Source: a virus
Direction: 5' to 3' (one strand)
IMG/VR virus record: IMGVR_UViG_3300033064_003691
Span: 1-32,485 of that record
Length of the DNA stretch: 32,485 bases
Shown here: in pieces, positions 2,423 through 32,404 of the stretch
How positions within the stretch are numbered: position 1 is the stretch's first letter
Layout: each line of letters opens with the position of its first letter
Notes under the pieces: generated by a model
Databases searched by the model: none
Told to the model about the DNA's origin: nothing
What the model saw: only the letters and a program-made list of their open reading frames with translations
Made by a program: the position numbers and the translations under genes

Positions 2423-3508
2423 CTAATTTTCCTCGTTATCGCGCTTGGCGCGGCCGCGCCGGGCGGCTTCCCGATCGGGTAAAACGTAACCGCCCAGGAC
2501 CGGGCTGGTGATGTTGTGGCCGCTGAAACTGATTATCTCGGCGTTGGTGGATCCGCGATTGCCCATTTCGGTCAGCGCCGTGGTGCGCAGATCATGGAAA
2601 GTCAGGCCAGGGCGCACGCCGGCGCGGTCCTTAATCTTGCGGAATGCCCGGCCGAAAATATTCTTATCCGGGTAGGGCTGCGCGGTTTGTTCGGAAACGA
2701 TCAAATGCGTCGAGGTCTTGTCGGTCGCCTCGATCATTTCCAGGCTGCGGGCGCCCAGGGGCAACCATAGATCCCGCCCGGCGCCGCGCCGCTTCATCTG
2801 CCGCACGGTCAGCCCCTCGCCGTCATATTGGTTCCAGGTCAGGGCCAGGATATCCTGTTGCGGCAAGCTGGTGTCATAGGCGATCTGGATCGCCAGGGCC
2901 ACCGACGGCCGGGCCTCGGCGATATTGCCCTGGGATGATCTGTGCGGCGCCAGGGCGGCCGCGATCACCGCGTCAACCTCGGCCGGCAACCACACGGCAT
3001 CGCGCGCCGGTGGTTTCTGGATCTGCAAGCGCCGCGCCGGGTTGTTTTCCAGGCCGCCGAGTTCGATCGCGAATTCAAATAATCGATGCAACCATTTCAT
3101 AATCTTGCGCGCCCGGTGCGGCGATCCTTCAAGCAATAATTCCGCATAATAGGCGCGGCAATCGGCCCGCTTTAGGGAGCGGACCAGGGCCGGGCCGAGG
3201 GCGGCGCGGATCCGCTGGAAGGCATAGTCTATTTCATCCTGGGTGGCGGGCGCCTTGGCGGTATAGAAGATCGGGTCGACCAGGAAACGGTCGATCAGGC
3301 CGGCGATGGTGGCGGCGCTGGGTTTGGGCGCCGCCTTGGCGTGGCGCGCGGCATCGTGGGCGGCGTTTTGCAGGGCGACGTAGGCCTCGGCCGCAGCCCG
3401 ATCGGGGCCGAATGATTGGCCGCGAAAGCCGGCGCGGCGCATACTTTGGCTTGGCTTGAATTTGTAGTGTGTCGCGGCGCCTCGCCCGTCGATGATTAAA
3501 TGCTTCAT
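2423..3508 (-). CDS. int: tyrosine-type site-specific integrase
   Basis: A 361-residue protein, a normal length for phage integrases. Residues about 65-165 look like the core-binding domain and 175-345 the catalytic domain. Visible active-site residues are HDLR (H305, R308), GH (H331) and the presumed nucleophile Y341 in LGGYV. The position of the first catalytic arginine, usually a TGLR-like motif, reads TSLPQQD (213-219), so that Arg is replaced by proline or shifted. Related alphaproteobacterial integrases with an LSPVD-like variant are recalled from general knowledge, so the protein may still be active. It is the last gene of the leftward operon; its ATG overlaps the previous stop (ATGA at 3505-3508). 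The role is insertion into and excision from tRNA-Glu. Confidence 0.93.
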   Translation of the reverse strand: MKHLIIDGRGAATHYKFKPSQSMRRAGFRGQSFGPDRAAAEAYVALQNAAHDAARHAKAAPKPSAATIAGLIDRFLVDPIFYTAKAPATQDEIDYAFQRIRAALGPALVRSLKRADCRAYYAELLLEGSPHRARKIMKWLHRLFEFAIELGGLENNPARRLQIQKPPARDAVWLPAEVDAVIAAALAPHRSSQGNIAEARPSVALAIQIAYDTSLPQQDILALTWNQYDGEGLTVRQMKRRGAGRDLWLPLGARSLEMIEATDKTSTHLIVSEQTAQPYPDKNIFGRAFRKIKDRAGVRPGLTFHDLRTTALTEMGNRGSTNAEIISFSGHNITSPVLGGYVLPDREAARRGRAKRDNEEN

Positions 3509-3711: not shown

Positions 3712-3940
3712 GGCCGAAGCGGGCATCGAGCCAGGCGCGGCCCGGGTCAGCCTCGGCGCTCTGGTCGACGGCCAGCACGGCGTCGAGTTGCGCCGTCGAC
3801 CAGCGGCGCGGCTTACTGTTTGGCGCGATCGGTTGCGGCCAGGTGCCGGCCTTGACTTCGCGGAGAAATTGCGCCGACGAACGGGCGCCGACATAGCGGG
3901 CGGCCTCGGCCGTGGGCAGGGTGTTCGGCTGGTCGGTCAT
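3701..3940 (-). CDS. excisionase-like helix-turn-helix protein
   Basis: A 79-residue protein. LPTAEAARYVGARSSAQFLR (residues 8-27) and WPQPIAPNSKPRRWSTAQLD (34-53) fit the winged-helix pattern of MerR/AlpA-like excisionases: an AAxxxG helix, a turn, then P-x-R-W before a short helix. Its place close upstream of the integrase supports a recombination-directionality role. The start at 3940 overlaps the stop of the DUF4031 gene (ATGA). It could instead be a transcriptional regulator, because the family does both. Confidence 0.7.
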   Translation of the reverse strand: MTDQPNTLPTAEAARYVGARSSAQFLREVKAGTWPQPIAPNSKPRRWSTAQLDAVLAVDQSAEADPGRAWLDARFGHGN

Positions 3941-6266: not shown

Positions 6267-6313
6267 GCACCGGCGCCGGCGGCAGGGAGAGTGTGGCACC
6301 GCCGGCGCCGTGC
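6267..6313. promoter_or_regulatory. long GC-rich hairpin between ParB-like gene and downstream genes
   Basis: A 16-base arm (6267-6282) and a 15-base arm (6299-6313) pair perfectly except for one bulged C, around a 16-base loop. No T-run follows on the minus strand, so it may be a messenger-stabilising or processing structure or a weak attenuator within the operon rather than an intrinsic terminator. Confidence 0.5.
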
Positions 6314-6374: not shown

Positions 6375-8633
6375 TTATGGTTTTGCCGTTGCCTCTGTTT
6401 TTGGCTTCGGCGCGGCGTCGCCGCCGCCGTCAATGGCGGCGATCATGCCGGCGCGGTCGGCGAAGGTCAGTTCGGGCGGGATCCAGCCGACGGGCAGTTG
6501 GCCGGCCAGTTCCGTCACCAGTTCGGCCTTTGACTTCGGGCGGGTCGGGTCGCCGCACAGGTCGGAATGGTGGGTGGCGGTGACGCCGTGCGCCATGGCC
6601 TGCAAGCGCGGCAGCCGGAACATGCCGAGAAATTCCGTCAAGTCCCTGGGTGTATCGACCGGGCTGTCGGCCTGCGCGCCAGTGGCCTCGGCAATGGCCA
6701 GGGTCAATTCGCTGTCGCCCAGGGTGGGTTGATAGCCGGGCCAGCAACCGACCTGGCGGGCGACAAGATGCTGAAAGATCTCGGCACAATGGCCGGGGTT
6801 GGCGGTCAACCAGCGGAAGGTGGCGGCATCATCGACGCTGTCGGTCCGCCAGCCGTCGCCGGTGATTTTCAGGGCGCCGGCCTTTGCCAGGGGCGCCAAC
6901 AGCGCCTTGGTATCGGCGATCAATGCCGGGTGGCCGTCGGGCGCCATGTCGTCGGGGCTGAACGGGTCGGCGCTGATCTTGACTTCGCCGGCGCCGTAGC
7001 GGTGCAACAGGGGCAGGATCACCAGGGCCATGGCGACCGCCTCCATATGGCCGTGGCCAATATTGGGGTGGGCGATGGCCCGCTGCAAGGCCTTGGTCTT
7101 TTCGCCCTGGCAAAGAATGATCGTCTTGCCGGTGACGGTTGCCGATGGCAGCTTGACGGCGGGTTCGGTGGTGGTGGTGCCGGTATTGGTGTCGGCGTCG
7201 GTGTCGGCCTTGCCTTTGCCGGCGTCGCGAAGATCGATATAGTCGACGCGAATTTGCACGGTCAGGGCGGTGTCGTAGATGATCAGGGCGCCGGCCCTGG
7301 GATCGTCCGGGCTGACGCGCTGATAGTTGCTGCTTTCGCCGTCGGCGTAGTCGCGCTTGGCGATGCGTTTGACCCAGGCGTATTGCCCGGCCAGTTCGGC
7401 CTCTTTGGCATCGATGGCGGCGGCCTGCAAACGGCGATATTGCACCATGTCCTCGAAATAGCCTTCGCCGTATAGCAGCGGCGCGATGGCTTTGCCGTTC
7501 TCGATCGCGGTGTCGCCGTTGGCATCCAGGATGATGCCGTCATAGAGCGCCAGATCAAACAGGGCCTGGCCGACCAGGGGGCTTTCCAAAGCGAGGCGGT
7601 CGCGGCTATCGCCGGCGTCCCAGCCATAGCCCTGGGCGATTTCGTCCAGGCATTCGGCCTGCAATTCACGGCTGGCCATGGTCAACACCTGGGCATGATC
7701 CAGGCTGATAGTGCCAGCAACCAGGGCGCCTTGCGCCTCTGGCGTCAGGGAGGTTGACAGGCGCAGGCGCTTTTGCACATAGCGCCGCGACATGCCGATG
7801 GCCTCGGCGATCCGCGCCGTCGCCCTGCCATCCCCATCCGCTCTATCGCAATAGGCCCGGAAGGCGTTGGCTTCATCCATGGGGGATAGGTTTTCGCGCT
7901 GTAGATTTTCCGTCATGGCGGCGAACAATACCTGGTCGTCGGAAAGATCGCGGACCAGGACCGGCACGATGTAGCTGTCGGCGTCGATCCTGCCGTCGTC
8001 GGCCAATTTATGGAGGGCGCGCAGGCGGCGGTTGCCGGCTATGACTTCGAAGCGCACCAGGTCGCCGACTTCATCGTCGGTGCGGTTTTCGGGGCTGGGC
8101 CGGGCGACAAGGTTTTGCAGCAGGCCCTGGGCCAGAATGCTATCGGCCAAGGCGGCGATTTCGCCGGCGTCAAAAATGGTGCGGGGGTTGAGCGGGCAGG
8201 CGTCAAGGTCGTCGACGGCGATATATTGCAGTTCGCCGCCATGATCACCGGCAATGGCGCCGGTGCTGAAACCGTTACTGTCCAGGCTTGGCGAACGGCG
8301 TTCGCCGCCGTCCATTTCGACAAGGTCGGCGTCGGCGGTGGGGGCCTTGTCGGCGGCGGCGATGGAGGCGACGGCGGCGCGGCCCAGGGCCGACAATGTG
8401 TCGGGCTTGCGTTGCAACAGGCCCTTGTCGACCAGTTCTTTCAGGGCGTTGCCGACGGTCGATTTGCCTATGGCCAGGGCCTTGCCGGTATCGCGGACAC
8501 TGGGCAGATCCTCGCCGCGTTCAAGGGTGGCGCCGGCGAAACCGAGGACCAGGACGGCATTCTCGGAGAGGCTGGCCAGGGCGGCGATATAGGAGGCGGC
8601 GGTGAATGTGGTGACGTGAGCGGTGGCGTTCAT
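6375..8633 (-). CDS. large ParB-like protein with N-terminal winged helix
   Basis: A 752-residue protein, much longer than a typical ParB (about 300). Residues 20-80 look like a MarR-type winged helix (SVRDTGKALAIGKSTVGNAL, then VDKGLLQR). Residues 137-250 carry the ParB N-domain: NPR at 149-151, GNRRLRAL at 200-207 and ENLQRENLSPMDEA at 242-255. Residues about 270-292 form the ParB/KorB HTH (IAEAIGMSRRYVQKRLRL). The C-terminal 450 residues are not recognised and include a Thr/Asp-rich linker near 480-500. Such proteins occur in plasmids and phages and may segregate DNA, regulate genes or (in some) cut DNA; the ParB fold suggests nucleotide binding at GNRR. The start has GGGAG upstream. A 17-bp palindrome lies within the coding sequence at 8290-8306. 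Confidence 0.85.
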   Translation of the reverse strand: MNATAHVTTFTAASYIAALASLSENAVLVLGFAGATLERGEDLPSVRDTGKALAIGKSTVGNALKELVDKGLLQRKPDTLSALGRAAVASIAAADKAPTADADLVEMDGGERRSPSLDSNGFSTGAIAGDHGGELQYIAVDDLDACPLNPRTIFDAGEIAALADSILAQGLLQNLVARPSPENRTDDEVGDLVRFEVIAGNRRLRALHKLADDGRIDADSYIVPVLVRDLSDDQVLFAAMTENLQRENLSPMDEANAFRAYCDRADGDGRATARIAEAIGMSRRYVQKRLRLSTSLTPEAQGALVAGTISLDHAQVLTMASRELQAECLDEIAQGYGWDAGDSRDRLALESPLVGQALFDLALYDGIILDANGDTAIENGKAIAPLLYGEGYFEDMVQYRRLQAAAIDAKEAELAGQYAWVKRIAKRDYADGESSNYQRVSPDDPRAGALIIYDTALTVQIRVDYIDLRDAGKGKADTDADTNTGTTTTEPAVKLPSATVTGKTIILCQGEKTKALQRAIAHPNIGHGHMEAVAMALVILPLLHRYGAGEVKISADPFSPDDMAPDGHPALIADTKALLAPLAKAGALKITGDGWRTDSVDDAATFRWLTANPGHCAEIFQHLVARQVGCWPGYQPTLGDSELTLAIAEATGAQADSPVDTPRDLTEFLGMFRLPRLQAMAHGVTATHHSDLCGDPTRPKSKAELVTELAGQLPVGWIPPELTFADRAGMIAAIDGGGDAAPKPKTEATAKP
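8290..8306. repeat. 17-bp palindrome GGCGAACGGCGTTCGCC, copy 1
   Basis: Perfect 7-bp arms surround GGC. It lies inside the ParB-like gene, in the linker between its winged helix and ParB domains. The same palindrome, with at most one centre change, occurs at 19174-19190 and 26881-26897. Confidence 0.6.
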
Positions 8634-23476: not shown

Positions 23477-24433
23477 ATGAGTGCTTTAGGTCTTGGCAGC
23501 CGGGCGATCCTCGGCTTACTTCACATGCGGTTGGAACAGGGCGCGATCGGTTGGATCGACCGCCTGGCTATGGCAATTAGCAGCGACCAGGCGTCGGAAA
23601 CCCATAAATGGCTCGGCATGTCGCCGGCCATGCGCGAGCATGTCGGCGGCCGTTTGGTGCATGGCCTGCGCGAGCAGGGGATTACGATCACCAACTCGAA
23701 TTTCGAGGCAACCATAGCGGTCATGCTTGACGAAATTCGCCGGGACAAAACGGGCCAGGTCGTGCAGCGGATCAACGGTCTGGCGGCACGCGCTAACAGC
23801 CACGGCGCCGGCCTGTTGTCGACATTGATTTTGAACGGCGAAAGCACGGTTTGCTATGATGGCCAGTTCTTTTTTGATACCGATCATTCCGAGGGTGATA
23901 GCGGCACCCAGGACAACGATATCCAGGTCGACGTTTCAGCCCAGGCCGTGCCGACCGACGAACAGGGTTCGACGACGGCACCGAGCGCGAAAACCATGCG
24001 CGAGGCAGTCTTGCAGGGGATCCAGCAAATCCTGGGCTTTGTCGATGATCAAGGCGAGCCGATCAACGAAGGGGCCAGCGAATTCATGGTGATGGTTCCG
24101 ACGCCGTTCTGGTCCTCGGCCGTTGCGGCTGTTGTCACGCCGACCTTGGCGGGTGGCGAGACAAACGTCCTGGCTGGGTTGCCGGGCATGTCGTTGAGCG
24201 TGGTGCCTAATCCGCGTCTGACCTGGACCGATACCTTTGCCGTCTTTCGTGCCGATGGTAGCGACGGCGGTGCGCCGTTTATCAAGCAAGAGGAAGTGCC
24301 CTTGACGACGCCATACCAGGCCGAGGGCAGTCCCGAGGAATACCATAACGGCCGGCATCTTTACTCCGTCGATTGGACCGGGCAAGTCGGCTATGGCTTC
24401 TGGCAGCACGCTTGCCAGGTGAAACTTATCTGA
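23477..24433 (+). CDS. major capsid protein, Mu gpT-like
   Basis: A 318-residue protein. Features match the Mu gpT family (PF10124): WLGMSPAMREHVGGRLVHGL, LLSTLILNGESTVCYDGQFF, FDTDHSE, and a C-terminal WQHACQVKL. It forms the icosahedral shell. Its start has TAGGGAAA upstream. A Mu-type capsid behind a lambda-type terminase and portal is a mosaic arrangement. A strong intrinsic terminator follows at 24451. Confidence 0.9.
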   Translation: MSALGLGSRAILGLLHMRLEQGAIGWIDRLAMAISSDQASETHKWLGMSPAMREHVGGRLVHGLREQGITITNSNFEATIAVMLDEIRRDKTGQVVQRINGLAARANSHGAGLLSTLILNGESTVCYDGQFFFDTDHSEGDSGTQDNDIQVDVSAQAVPTDEQGSTTAPSAKTMREAVLQGIQQILGFVDDQGEPINEGASEFMVMVPTPFWSSAVAAVVTPTLAGGETNVLAGLPGMSLSVVPNPRLTWTDTFAVFRADGSDGGAPFIKQEEVPLTTPYQAEGSPEEYHNGRHLYSVDWTGQVGYGFWQHACQVKLI

Positions 24434-26942: not shown

Positions 26943-28121
26943 ATGTCTACGAAATTTCGGACGCGCGCTCGATTGTTTTTGGTTGATGCCGAGGCGGTAA
27001 GTGGGACGGCGGAAGCCTTAACGCCGGCGGCCGACGCTTGCAAAATCGAAAACCTGCAAATCGAGGCGCCGGTCGAGGTCGAGCAAACCAACGAACACCA
27101 GGCCGGGCTTGACGCTTCGGCATCGATCCCCGGTGCCGTGCCGTCGCGCATGTCGGGCGATGTTTTGATCAAGGGGGCCGGTACCGCCGGCGTCGCGCCC
27201 GAGGGCGGCCCGTTGTTACGGGGCGCCGGCCTGTCGCAAACCCTGCAAGCGGCGGCGATCGCGGATACCGCCCAGGCCGGCGCCGCTGGCAGCCTAACCC
27301 TGGCCGCTGGTGAAAGCGCCGTCGATAATATCCACGTTGGAAAGGTCATTAAGATTACCGGCGGCACCGGAACGCTGAACGAGGCGCGGCTGATTTCCGG
27401 CTATGTGGGTAGCAGCAAGGTTGCCTCGGTATATCCTGATTGGTCGGTGACGCCGGATGTTACGACAACCTACAACATTGCCGCCAATGCGCTTTATGTT
27501 CCGGCCTCGACGGGCATGGAAACTATCACGGCCTTCGGCTATTTGATGCCGGCATCCGGCACCACGGCGCGCTTGCAAAAGATCGTCGGCGGTGTTGCCG
27601 GCATGACCATGCGCGTGCCGGCCAACAAGGTCGGCCGTTATTCGTTTTCCATGCTCGGCAAATTGCCGGAAAATCCGACCGATCCAACGACGCCGACCGG
27701 GACGGCATACGATACGCCGACCGCACCGGCGTTTATTGGCGCCGACGCCTATCTCGGCGGCGTCGCGATCCAGATCAACGAGTTCTCGCTGGACCTGGGC
27801 AATGACGTAAAACTTGCCGTCGATCCGACCGAGGCGAACGGTTATGACGCGGCGTTTGTCAATGAGCGGCGGATCGTCGGGTCAATCGACCCGCGTATTT
27901 CCGATCTTGCAACGCGGGATATCTTCGCCGATTTGAGGGCGCCGACCCGCCGCGATTTGTGGTTGCGGTGGGGCACGGCCTCGGGCAATTCGGTATCGCT
28001 CTGGATCCCAAATTTTCAATATACCGGCGTTGGCCATGGCGATGCCGATGGCGTGATTACGCAAGTGGCGCCGTTCGAATGTCCCGACCCGGATACCGGC
28101 GTTTACATCTGCATTTACTAG
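26943..28121 (+). CDS. major tail tube protein
   Basis: A 392-residue protein. The start STKFRTRARLFLVDAEAVSG and the core QIEAPVEVEQTNEHQAGLDA are typical of siphoviral tail-tube subunits. A large inserted domain (about residues 105-190) contains a repeated TG-rich beta pattern (IKITGGTGTLNEARLISGYV). The tail tube forms hexameric rings stacked along the tape measure. AGGGG lies 11 bases upstream. The gene is followed by the tail assembly chaperone pair, as expected. Confidence 0.82.
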   Translation: MSTKFRTRARLFLVDAEAVSGTAEALTPAADACKIENLQIEAPVEVEQTNEHQAGLDASASIPGAVPSRMSGDVLIKGAGTAGVAPEGGPLLRGAGLSQTLQAAAIADTAQAGAAGSLTLAAGESAVDNIHVGKVIKITGGTGTLNEARLISGYVGSSKVASVYPDWSVTPDVTTTYNIAANALYVPASTGMETITAFGYLMPASGTTARLQKIVGGVAGMTMRVPANKVGRYSFSMLGKLPENPTDPTTPTGTAYDTPTAPAFIGADAYLGGVAIQINEFSLDLGNDVKLAVDPTEANGYDAAFVNERRIVGSIDPRISDLATRDIFADLRAPTRRDLWLRWGTASGNSVSLWIPNFQYTGVGHGDADGVITQVAPFECPDPDTGVYICIY

Positions 28122-28150: not shown

Positions 28151-28798
28151 ATGGCGATCATTTTAACCGCCGGCAGCACGGTGCCGTTTACCGTCGACGA
28201 TGTTTTGCCCGGCGAGGACAATCCGCGCACCTATATTCTGGCGGTGCCGACGCGGGCGATGCGCCAGGAATTCGAGCGGGATAAGCAGGGCGATATGGCC
28301 GCCAAGGCCCTGGCGATTGGTGTGCCCGAGATCAGGGTCTGGTCGGTGTCGGCGTTTCTAAATTTGGCCGATGGCTGCCTGGCCGAAATCTTTCCCGATT
28401 TCCGGGCGCCGGATAAATTGGCGGCGATCGACGCCATTGCCGCCTATCGGGCCGCCTGGGCCGAGGATCCCGGCGCCATCGATGATGCTGTTCTGCGGAC
28501 CTACTGGGATCTGGAAAAGAAGTTGATAGCGGGATCCGACGAATTCCGCCACGCCGCTAACGATCGCCATCGTTATTTGGAGGTTCTAGGCGAGGCGGCG
28601 ACCCGGCGCTTTGTGCAGGCTATTACGGGACCGGATGGCGAGGCGCTGGATCCCGTCGGGCGCGCCTTGCCGCGTGCCTTTGGCCGCCTGACCGCCGCCG
28701 CGTTAGAGCGGATCCCGACGCCGCACCAGGTCGATATTTTTATGGAGGTTAACCGTCTTTCCGAACCTACCGAGGACGAAATAAAAAAGTCGGATTGA
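28151..28798 (+). CDS. tail assembly chaperone (gpG-like)
   Basis: A 215-residue protein between tail tube and tape measure, the conserved slot for tail assembly chaperones. It contains SVSAFLNLADGCLAEIFPDF and helical middle and C-terminal segments; sequence similarity to lambda G itself is not evident. AAGGA lies upstream of the ATG. The last codons read GAA ATA AAA AAG TCG GAT TGA, which contain a -1 frameshift heptamer, so a part of translation should continue into the frame ending at 29115. Confidence 0.75.
   Translation: MAIILTAGSTVPFTVDDVLPGEDNPRTYILAVPTRAMRQEFERDKQGDMAAKALAIGVPEIRVWSVSAFLNLADGCLAEIFPDFRAPDKLAAIDAIAAYRAAWAEDPGAIDDAVLRTYWDLEKKLIAGSDEFRHAANDRHRYLEVLGEAATRRFVQAITGPDGEALDPVGRALPRAFGRLTAAALERIPTPHQVDIFMEVNRLSEPTEDEIKKSD
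28783..28789 (+). promoter_or_regulatory. -1 ribosomal frameshift site A AAA AAG
   Basis: The heptamer lies in the correct X XXY YYZ phase relative to the gene starting at 28151 (codons AAA 28784-28786 and AAG 28787-28789). The -1 frame then continues as GTC GGA TTG ACC and stays open to 29115. This is the slippery sequence used by E. coli dnaX. Three codons remain before the zero-frame stop. Confidence 0.75.
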
Positions 28799-29115
28799 CC
28801 GTCGCCGTTGCCGTGATGCACCCGGCGGAATTCGGCGACGGTCACGAATTCACCCAAGATAACCCGGCACCGGAAGGCCAGGGCTGGTTGCTTGAGGCCC
28901 TGGGCTATGACGCCGACAATTTGTTGCGGGTGCATCCCGCGAACCTGATCGATGCAGAATGCCGCCTGGCCTGGTCGCTTTACAAAGACTACGCCGGCGG
29001 CGGCCTCGGCGCCGGGCATTTGCCCCAGGCCGGCGGGGCGCTTGATCAGGCCTGTTGCACCATGGCGGCTTTGGCGGTGATCGCCCAGGCTGTCGATCTT
29101 TTGAAACCGGAGTAA
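28795..29115 (+). CDS. T-like extension of the tail assembly chaperone (frameshift product)
   Basis: A 106-residue reading frame, if begun at TTG 28795, with WLLEALGYDADNLLRVHPAN and a C-terminal helical part with a CC pair. The frame lies -1 to the chaperone at 28151. There is no ATG near its start and no ribosome-binding site of note. Translation by frameshift from the upstream gene, giving a fusion of about 321 residues (28151-28789, then -1 from 28789 to 29115), is therefore more likely than independent initiation. An ATG at 28816 is the other option. The tape measure gene follows after four bases. Confidence 0.7.
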   Translation: MTVAVAVMHPAEFGDGHEFTQDNPAPEGQGWLLEALGYDADNLLRVHPANLIDAECRLAWSLYKDYAGGGLGAGHLPQAGGALDQACCTMAALAVIAQAVDLLKPE

Positions 29116-29119
29116 CCCC

Positions 29120-32100
29120 ATGGCCAATGCCAAGCGCGAATTATCGATCCGCCTGGCGGTGGACAATTCGGCGCAATCGGTCGCCCGGTTGCAGGCCGTG
29201 GGCACGTCTGGCGACCATGCCATGGCCAAGATCCATCGCGGCGCCAAGCAGGCCGACCGCAGCATGGCGGGTCTGATTACCCGCACCAATTTGCTGAACG
29301 TGGCGACCAAGGCCGCCGGCGTAGCGGTGGTCGCCATGGCGGGGGCGGCGGGTTTCGCCCTGTTGTCCAACCGCGCAATCAAGGCCGGCGATGCCATTGC
29401 CAAAACCTCCGACCGGATCGGGATATCGACCGACACTTTGCAGGAATACCGCCACGCCGCCGATCTGGCAGGCGTTTCGACGGAGCAACTAGATAGCGGT
29501 TTCGAGGCCTTTACCAAGCGCCTGGGCGAGGCCCGTGCCGGCACCGGCACCATGACCACCTTGATCCAAAAAATGGATGCCGAGTTTCTGAAAACCATTG
29601 TCGCGGCCAAGTCGTCGGATGATGCCCTTGGCCTGATGTTGGCCAAAATTGGCAGCCTGAGCAACCAGGCCGACAAGGCGGCCCTGTCGGCCGCCGCCTT
29701 TGGCCGCTCGGCCGGCGTCGGCATGACCTTGTTGGTCAAGGATGGCACCGCCGCCCTTGAAGGTATGCGCAAGGAGGCCCGCGACCTGGGCCTGGTGATC
29801 GAGGAACACCTGTTGCGCCAGGCCGAGGAAACCACCGACAAGCTGTCGATTATGGCCAGCGTCATAGATGCGCAGACCAATACCGCCCTGTTGGCCCTGG
29901 CGCCATTGATCGCCGACATAGCGGTAAACATGACGGCGGCCGCCATCGCGGTCGGCAAGTTCTATGGCGCATTTCAGGATATCGGCGACCGTACATCGTC
30001 GGGTTTGCAGGATAGCCTAGCCGAATTAAAGGCCGACCTGGCGGCCGGCCAGGAATTGCTGCAAGCCTTCCGCGATAGCGGCAGCGCCGGCAACCAGTTG
30101 GCGGTCACGGAAAAACGTATCGCCGTGATCGAGGCGCGGATCGCCAAGGTGCAGGGCGCGTTAAACGCGCGCGCGACGGCGGCCAGCGGCAAGGGTAGCC
30201 CGCTGTCAATCGAGATCGGCCCGTCGAATGCCGAACTTGACTATGCCGAGGCCAACCGGGCGCACCGTAACCGGATCGCGGCCGAGGGCATGGCAGACGT
30301 CGAGGTCGAATTCGCCAAAAAAGCGGCGGACGAACGCGAACTGATAGCCAAGGCCGCGCGGGAGAAAATTTTTAAGGATTGGACGGCGGCCAATGAGCGC
30401 AGCGTGGCCGAGGTTGTTTCCCTCGGCCTGGGCGTTTCGGGCGTCCTGCGCGATAGTTTCCGCGACGGCCTCGATGGCAGTTTGACATTCGTCGAGAGTT
30501 TCGCGGCCCGTTTCGAAAATATTATGTTCGACACAATTGCCAACATAGCCGAGGCCCTGGTCTTCCAGCCGATTATCAACGGCGTTGTCGGCGGCATTGC
30601 CGGCGGCAATCCCGCTGGTGGCGGTTCGGGTCTGGCCGCCGGCGGCGGTTCGGGCCTGGCTGGCTCGATCGCGCAATCCATTGTCGGCAAAGCAATCGGC
30701 GGCCCCATATCGGAAGCCCTTGGCCTTGATAGTATATCGACAAGTATTTCCTCGGCGCTCGGCTTCGGTGGATCGGCCGCCATTAGTGCCGGCGCGGTCG
30801 AGGCGGCGGGCCTTGGCTTCGCCACGGCGGCAACGCCGGGGGTGGCCGCCGCCGGTGGCGGCCTTGCCGGCGGGCTGGGTTTGAGCGCCTTTGCTGGGCC
30901 GTTGGCCATTGGTGTCATTGGCGCCCTGGCGTTAAGCGGCATTTTGGGTGGCGGCGAGGGCCATTACGGCGCCTTGTCGCGGGTCGGCCAGGATGAAGAC
31001 GGCCGGGCCATTGTTGCCGATACCGGCGCCAAAAACGCCGATCCATCCAGCGTTATTGCCGAGGCGCAAAAGGCCGCCGACCTGTTGAACCTTTTGATCG
31101 ATGCCGGTGCCAGCATTGACCTGCGCCAGGCCGGCGAAAAACTGGGCGTTGAATTGGGTATCGCCGACGAAGACGGCCAGCGCAACCAATCGGCGGCGCA
31201 ATTGGTGCAGAATGTTGTTGCCTCGGGCGCCGTCACTGGTCTTTCAGACCAGGCCTTGGCCCTGGCCCTGCAAGGCGCCAGCGTGGCGCAGATCCAACTT
31301 GCCGAACTGGCGCCGGCGCTGACCGCCGCCGGTACCGCCCTGGGCGAATTCGCCGGCCAGGTACAAACCGCCTCGACCGAGGCCGCCCGCGCGGCGGCGT
31401 ATTATACCAGCGCGGCCGTGCGCCTGGGCGAGGCGGCGGGTGCCCTGGGCATTGGTGCCCTGTCGCCGCTGTCGCCCGAACAACGGCTGACGTCGGCGCG
31501 GGGGATCTTTACCAACCGCCTGGCTGCCGCCCAGGGCGGCGATCGGGATGCCATAGGCGCCCTGGCGGGCGCCGGGTCGGCGTTGTTATCCGCCAGCCGT
31601 GACTTTAATGCGTCCTCGGGCGCCTATACCCAGGATTTCGACGCGGTGGTGTCGGCCCTGGGGCAGACCCAGGCAATCAGCGAGGGCTTGGCGGCCGATG
31701 CCTCGGCCGAGGTTTTGGAACTGGGCAAGCATACGAATTTGCTGGGCGCCATCGTCGCCAACCTGGCCGGCGCCGAGGGGCCGAATGCGGATCTGTTGCG
31801 CCAGCAATTGGCCGCCTTGGAAGTTCTGGCCCTGGGGTCGGGCTTGTCGGCCTCGGCGGTATCCTCGGCCGTGGGCGCGGTCGGCGAGCAGCGCGCCGAC
31901 CAGGTGTCGGCGGCGACGGCGCGGGCGGCCAGCGCGGCCGCCGCGCCAAAAGTGACGGGGCTGGATAGTTCCGACACTGGCGAAAAGTTAATGGTGCAAT
32001 ATGACCGCGCCGCAAAATTGTCAGAGAGTAAAAAGACGGCCTGGCAAATGTACCTTGTGCATGAATGGCGCGGGCTTTTGAGTGGCAGTAACGGCCCTAT

Positions 32101-32404
32101 GCAAGAATTCATGCCAAATAAATATCCAAACCACCGGCAGCCTGGTTTTGAATTTGGCGGTGATTTCGTGGTGCCGGGATCCGGTGGCCCGGATAGCCAA
32201 AACGTGGGTTTCCGCGCTACGCCGGGTGAAATTGTAACGGTGCAACCGCCTAACGTGATCAACACCCTGTTGGCGCAGTTCGAGGCGCAGCGCCGCCAGT
32301 TCGCGCGGATGCAGGATCTATTGGTCGAAATCAACGAAAACACCGCCGATAGCGCGGCGGCGACGCACAAGGTCGAGCGCCGCGTCGCCGGCGTCAAGGC
32401 GTAG
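29120..32404 (+). CDS. tail tape measure protein
   Basis: A 1094-residue protein. The N-terminus (ELSIRLAVDNSAQSVARLQA) is followed by a hydrophobic segment about 58-78 and long helical stretches. Near 480-610 are Gly/Ala-rich hydrophobic segments (GGSGLAAGGGSGLAGSIAQS; GLGLSAFAGPLAIGVIGALA). The C-terminus has GGDFVVPGSGGPDSQNVGFR, a common tape-measure ending. Using about 0.15 nm per residue, a tail near 160 nm is expected. It sets tail length and may help DNA delivery. GGAG lies nine bases before the ATG. No peptidase motif is obvious. Confidence 0.9.
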   Translation: MANAKRELSIRLAVDNSAQSVARLQAVGTSGDHAMAKIHRGAKQADRSMAGLITRTNLLNVATKAAGVAVVAMAGAAGFALLSNRAIKAGDAIAKTSDRIGISTDTLQEYRHAADLAGVSTEQLDSGFEAFTKRLGEARAGTGTMTTLIQKMDAEFLKTIVAAKSSDDALGLMLAKIGSLSNQADKAALSAAAFGRSAGVGMTLLVKDGTAALEGMRKEARDLGLVIEEHLLRQAEETTDKLSIMASVIDAQTNTALLALAPLIADIAVNMTAAAIAVGKFYGAFQDIGDRTSSGLQDSLAELKADLAAGQELLQAFRDSGSAGNQLAVTEKRIAVIEARIAKVQGALNARATAASGKGSPLSIEIGPSNAELDYAEANRAHRNRIAAEGMADVEVEFAKKAADERELIAKAAREKIFKDWTAANERSVAEVVSLGLGVSGVLRDSFRDGLDGSLTFVESFAARFENIMFDTIANIAEALVFQPIINGVVGGIAGGNPAGGGSGLAAGGGSGLAGSIAQSIVGKAIGGPISEALGLDSISTSISSALGFGGSAAISAGAVEAAGLGFATAATPGVAAAGGGLAGGLGLSAFAGPLAIGVIGALALSGILGGGEGHYGALSRVGQDEDGRAIVADTGAKNADPSSVIAEAQKAADLLNLLIDAGASIDLRQAGEKLGVELGIADEDGQRNQSAAQLVQNVVASGAVTGLSDQALALALQGASVAQIQLAELAPALTAAGTALGEFAGQVQTASTEAARAAAYYTSAAVRLGEAAGALGIGALSPLSPEQRLTSARGIFTNRLAAAQGGDRDAIGALAGAGSALLSASRDFNASSGAYTQDFDAVVSALGQTQAISEGLAADASAEVLELGKHTNLLGAIVANLAGAEGPNADLLRQQLAALEVLALGSGLSASAVSSAVGAVGEQRADQVSAATARAASAAAAPKVTGLDSSDTGEKLMVQYDRAAKLSESKKTAWQMYLVHEWRGLLSGSNGPMQEFMPNKYPNHRQPGFEFGGDFVVPGSGGPDSQNVGFRATPGEIVTVQPPNVINTLLAQFEAQRRQFARMQDLLVEINENTADSAAATHKVERRVAGVKA

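Follow-up and report, generated by a model that had tools for sequence, protein, structure and literature searches.

A frameshift in tail assembly genes was reportedly described by Xu, Hendrix and Duda in 2004. The slippery heptamer of phage lambda is G_GGA_AAG. At the lambda G/GT locus, a programmed −1 frameshift takes place in the tail assembly genes, and g-t frameshifts are also on record for the haloarchaeal viruses HCTV-1, -2, and -5 (PMC5009743). The latter differ from the family reported here in having archaeal hosts, and they are likened to it by description. Outside tail genes, the Escherichia coli dnaX signal combines the heptamer A_AAA_AAG with an upstream SD-like element and a downstream hairpin (PMC3711429, PMC5600365).

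Here, we analyzed a 32,485-nucleotide stretch of viral DNA (IMG/VR record IMGVR_UViG_3300033064_003691), referred to in its full length as the window. It contains a locus that we read, with a probability of about 0.94, as a programmed −1 ribosomal frameshift by which a single message gives rise to two tail assembly chaperones. Similarly to lambda G/GT, two overlapping open reading frames (ORFs) lie between the major tail protein and the tape measure protein, the second in the −1 frame and without a start of its own, and an in-phase heptamer is located near the end of the first. In contrast to lambda, the heptamer is A_AAA_AAG, it is accompanied by a strong hairpin and an SD-like element, and there is no detectable homology to a catalogued chaperone. 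With E. coli dnaX, the locus shares the heptamer itself and a hairpin a few nucleotides downstream (at +6), and its upstream SD-like sequence is a candidate counterpart of the dnaX element; however, slippage in the window would yield a product longer than the normal one, whereas slippage in dnaX yields a shorter one.

Slippery heptamer and overlapping frames

The G-like ORF, which encodes the proposed tail assembly chaperone made without slippage (215 amino acids; assigned from the ORF call, position, and homologs), spans positions 28151 to 28798 on the plus strand, as do all the elements of the locus described below. Codon reading placed the heptamer AAAAAAG at 28783 to 28789, exactly in phase with this ORF as A_AAA_AAG and two codons ahead of its stop (GAC GAA ATA AAA AAG TCG GAT TGA). 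At the site, the −1 frame reads AAA AAA GTC GGA TTG, and it is free of stops from 28753 to a TAA ending at 29115. Thus, both the phase of the heptamer and the −1 relation of the downstream frame, as claimed in the initial annotation, were confirmed. The T-like part, recognized through tblastn and HMM homologs, comprises 110 residues counted from the heptamer (28783 to 29115) and would be joined to G by the slip. The predicted products are a 321–amino acid fusion with slippage, carrying the predicted junction peptide ...EDEIKKVGLTVAVAVMHPAEF..., and the 215–amino acid protein without it. Across the late genes (4841 codon steps), no in-phase A6N heptamer occurs other than the one at this site; the chance expectation within the 15-codon overlap is about 0.003 for an in-phase A6N heptamer and about 0.04 for any X_XXY_YYZ heptamer.

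Conservation of the heptamer in homologous loci

Direct searches of phages, plasmids, viral contigs, and genome contigs with the G and T proteins gave no matches. Relatives were reached by way of an alignment of the major capsid protein and then by searching locally with tblastn and HMMs, and further loci were obtained from a scan with the T part, from annotated phages, and from a profile search of a class-wide genome sample. After two duplicates had been dropped, this resulted in 45 distinct homologous loci including the window. T homologs were identified by tblastn in L090, L113, and L092 and by HMM in 45 loci, while homologs of the G-like ORF with 18 to 26% identity occupied the same place.

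The initial annotation had named conservation of the heptamer in homologous prophages as a test of slippage. All 45 loci carried an X_XXY_YYZ heptamer that is in phase and located at the homologous residue, where T homology begins, and the opposite outcome, loss of the heptamer with both frames kept, did not occur. The heptamer was A_AAA_AAC in 40 loci, A_AAA_AAG in two, G_GGA_AAC in two, and A_AAA_AAA in one, a distribution to be read with the fact that one viral scan used a KK-containing peptide pattern, which favors loci with six As at the site. The two A_AAA_AAG members are the window and Rhodobacter phage RcTiptonus, and the G_GGA_AAC members are Rhizobium phages RHph_I4 and L338C. Thus, the "classic," dnaX-type A_AAA_AAG of the initial annotation is indeed present, but its AAG is an exception in a family whose norm is A_AAA_AAC. 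All five members from the class-wide genome sample had an in-phase heptamer. In L026, which reads GTA AAA AAC TAA, an apparent loss of the heptamer came from a late-starting HMM match. A zero-frame stop directly follows the heptamer in 13 members; elsewhere, G continues for up to about 48 codons. The letters of the heptamer vary and its slipperiness is kept, as selection on frameshifting would predict. Judged by sequence, the family extends over phages and prophages of alphaproteobacteria as well as some others, with a predicted frameshift signal in every member examined.

Several of these relatives are annotated phages. Rhodobacter phages RcZahn (gp27/gp28) and RcTiptonus (gp42/gp43) have a homologous T part, with the heptamer in phase at the corresponding residue, and the same T homology and heptamer position were found in Rhizobium phages RHph_TM16, RHph_I4, and vB_RleS_L338C, Agrobacterium phage JP1, and Alteromonas phage P24. 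The heptamers of these phages are mostly A_AAA_AAC or G_GGA_AAC, and the pair is annotated as two genes. The A_AAA_AAG of RcTiptonus (L169:1501-1507) likewise lies in a pair whose two frames are listed separately, as genes 42 and 43. For RcZahn, the published description reports "no clear evidence" of a tail chaperone frameshift signal (PMC8601537); however, homology places an A_AAA_AAC at L006:6200-6206 (positions 23927 to 23933 of the record), in phase in gp27 and with the −1 frame entering gp28.

Gene order and prophage setting

The upstream neighbor of the pair is a tail tube protein gene (26943 to 28121, plus strand; Pfam PF18906 Phage_tube_2, E = 2.2e-8), and the downstream neighbor is a tape measure protein gene (29120 to 32404, plus strand; phrog_9483, E = 1.2e-29; phrog_8125, E = 6e-26). 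These matches bear out the earlier placement of the pair between tail tube and tape measure. The ORF following T encodes a tape measure protein in nine of nine relatives tested, with matches to several different PHROG families. A tape measure gene is likewise annotated downstream in several phage records, for the phages named above wherever the record reaches that far.

The window also contains genes for a lambda-like terminase and portal, a Mu-like major capsid protein, and a head-tail attachment protein. Its early region encodes a 752–amino acid ParB-like protein (ParB_N and HTH_ParB; 6375 to 8633, minus strand), which is far longer than a usual ParB. At the left edge, a bacterial divergent polysaccharide deacetylase gene (PF04748; 608 to 2158) lies beside the integrase gene (2423 to 3508, minus strand); the alphaproteobacterial genome G364 has a gene with 90% identity to the full length of this deacetylase gene, and neither the tail tube protein nor the T-part profile found a match in that genome. 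The window is thus a prophage adjoining a bacterial gene, a setting in which the change of frame might reflect prophage decay, or else a sequencing error, next to a heptamer present by chance. However, 44 further loci, drawn from phages, prophages, and metagenomes, show the frame relation together with the heptamer; this conservation refutes such an explanation and leaves it a negligible probability.

Families and folds of the two proteins

Neither Pfam nor PHROGs contained a family for the G or T part, searched alone or via relatives. AlphaFold models had a mean pLDDT of 87 for G, which is mainly helical, and 82 for T; Foldseek gave no significant match for T against a viral library or for G against viral and PDB structures. 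Homology of the two window proteins to lambda gpG, gpT, or any catalogued chaperone was likewise undetectable. Thus, the assignment as chaperones is based on where the genes lie and on the predicted frameshift. The lambda G/GT logic invoked in the initial annotation is strongly supported by our comparison, as is the gene position, whereas common descent with the lambda genes found no support in detectable homology. Together, the G and T parts probably represent an uncatalogued chaperone family that would use the known G/GT mechanism.

Start codons in the T frame

The T frame had been described as opening without a good start. In the window, the starts near the site are TTG at 28795, GTG at 28813, and ATG at 28816, and none is preceded by an SD sequence. 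Among the 45 members, 32 have no ATG, GTG, or TTG in the T frame between −30 and +75, leaving possible starts in 13, the window among them; an SD-led start near the site was found in none of the 45. Thus, the earlier description holds for the window and extends to its relatives. The TTG at 28795 to 28797 overlaps the G stop codon TGA at 28796 to 28798 (TTGA), which makes it conceivable that T is produced in the window as a separate protein by translational coupling, and the case against coupling therefore rests on the relatives. Most of these lack any start near the site, although all of them keep the heptamer. Moreover, the two lysines encoded by the heptamer mark the start of T homology, ahead of the TTG, and this codon has no SD before it. 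We therefore regard coupling at TTG 28795 as very improbable.

Downstream hairpin and upstream SD-like element

A predicted stimulatory hairpin, identified as an inverted repeat and by folding, occupies 28796 to 28844. Its perfect 12–base pair (bp) arms (28796 to 28807 and 28833 to 28844) enclose a 25-nt loop that itself folds, and the 5′ arm opens with the G stop codon. A 6-nt spacer (28790 to 28795) separates the heptamer from the stem, in line with a family-wide preference for +6. The downstream 66 nt of RNA fold at −32.4 kcal/mol, with a z score of −3.49 relative to dinucleotide shuffles; for nearly the same stretch, comparison with synonymous recodings of the T frame gave a z score of −2.76 (p = 0.01).

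As many metagenomic members are interrelated, the family-wide signal was counted in a non-redundant set of 29 members, which reduces but does not abolish redundancy. In 23 of the 29, the best stem of 7 bp or more began between +5 and +8; synonymous shuffles gave 9.1 ± 2.5 such members, and the rate at pseudo-sites was 13%. The best stem started exactly at +6 in 16 of the 29 (5.7 ± 2.0 under synonymous shuffling). In several members, the stem arms have no sequence kinship. Within the alignable group, covariation of the stem was positive but modest (76% of cells paired versus 72% when shuffled), since the same arms code for conserved residues as well. For this analysis, the stem registers were recomputed with the conserved F codon as an anchor, because the MAFFT alignment had misplaced the window's 3-nt insertion relative to the 5′ arm, setting it on the opposite side. 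Four perfect 12-bp hairpins occur in the window, as compared to about 0.4 expected; the remaining three inverted repeats, whose loops measure at most 40 nt, lie at 3761 to 3803, 6271 to 6310, and 27222 to 27284.

Upstream of the heptamer, an SD-like GAGGA is located at 28772 to 28776, the last G of GAGG being 8 nt before the heptamer; the placement of the element 7 nt before the heptamer sets it apart from dnaX. Of the 29 non-redundant members, 20 had an SD-like tetramer between −14 and −4, as compared to 15% at control positions (maximum, 38%), an excess to which codon choice at conserved residues could contribute. Evaluated locus by locus through duplex energy, SD-like pairing was not significant, so that the signal is visible only as a position-specific enrichment across the family. 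Both the hairpin and the SD-like element were absent from the initial annotation.

The spacing of the hairpin also bears on whether the fusion might instead arise from slippage of RNA polymerase on the run of As. Such slippage occurs in Thermus dnaX on nine As (PMC3711429), and the site in the window is indeed an A run. However, this run has only six As, two members carry GGGAAAC without any run, and a fixed 6-nt distance to a hairpin is a mark of ribosomal frameshifting. Polymerase slippage is thus a highly improbable source of the fusion, even more so than coupling is of a separate T protein.

Heptamer choice and host tRNA-Lys

In E. coli, A_AAA_AAC is much less shift-prone than A_AAA_AAG (PMC5009743). 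It could be imagined that the last base of the heptamer is tuned to the tRNA-Lys of the host, with AAC used where tRNA-Lys(CUU) is present and AAG only where tRNA-Lys(UUU) is alone, because tRNA-Lys(CUU) would hold AAG firmly. Among five host genomes sampled for A_AAA_AAC members, four had tRNA-Lys(CUU); the fifth, 1.0 Mb in size, yielded neither the CUU nor the UUU form. A genome of Rhodobacter capsulatus, the host species of the A_AAA_AAG phage RcTiptonus, contained tRNA-Lys(UUU) only, with no CUU form found. The same was true for G364, the genome closest to the flanking gene of the window, where absence from a draft is weak evidence. However, RcZahn also infects R. capsulatus and yet has A_AAA_AAC, and in insertion sequences, AAG motifs reportedly remain possible where tRNA-Lys(CUU) is present (PMC4066793). 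We thus consider tuning to the host tRNA unlikely. Across the tRNA-Lys loci recorded (L203 to L212 and L225), the CUU form was seen in several alphaproteobacterial genomes, and three Rhodobacteraceae genomes had the UUU form only.

Discussion

Under programmed −1 frameshifting, the majority of ribosomes would read the G ORF (28151 to 28798) and end at its TGA. A minority would pause before the 12-bp hairpin with tRNAs on AAA in the P site and AAG in the A site, possibly assisted in pausing or slipping by anti-SD pairing with the upstream GAGGA. After slipping back by one base, these ribosomes would read on to 29115 and produce the G-T fusion, so that the ratio of the two products would favor G. 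By analogy with lambda gpG and gpGT, G may coat the tape measure protein, and the T part may recruit tail tube subunits; a chaperone function of this kind would suit the position of the pair.

The G/GT frameshift itself is textbook knowledge, and what is added here is a probable, uncatalogued chaperone family with a universal frameshift signal. It makes a joined annotation of the G and T genes possible and corrects the published negative for Rhodobacter phage RcZahn. Last, the near-uniform A_AAA_AAC renders the relation between host tRNA and heptamer choice testable inside one gene family.
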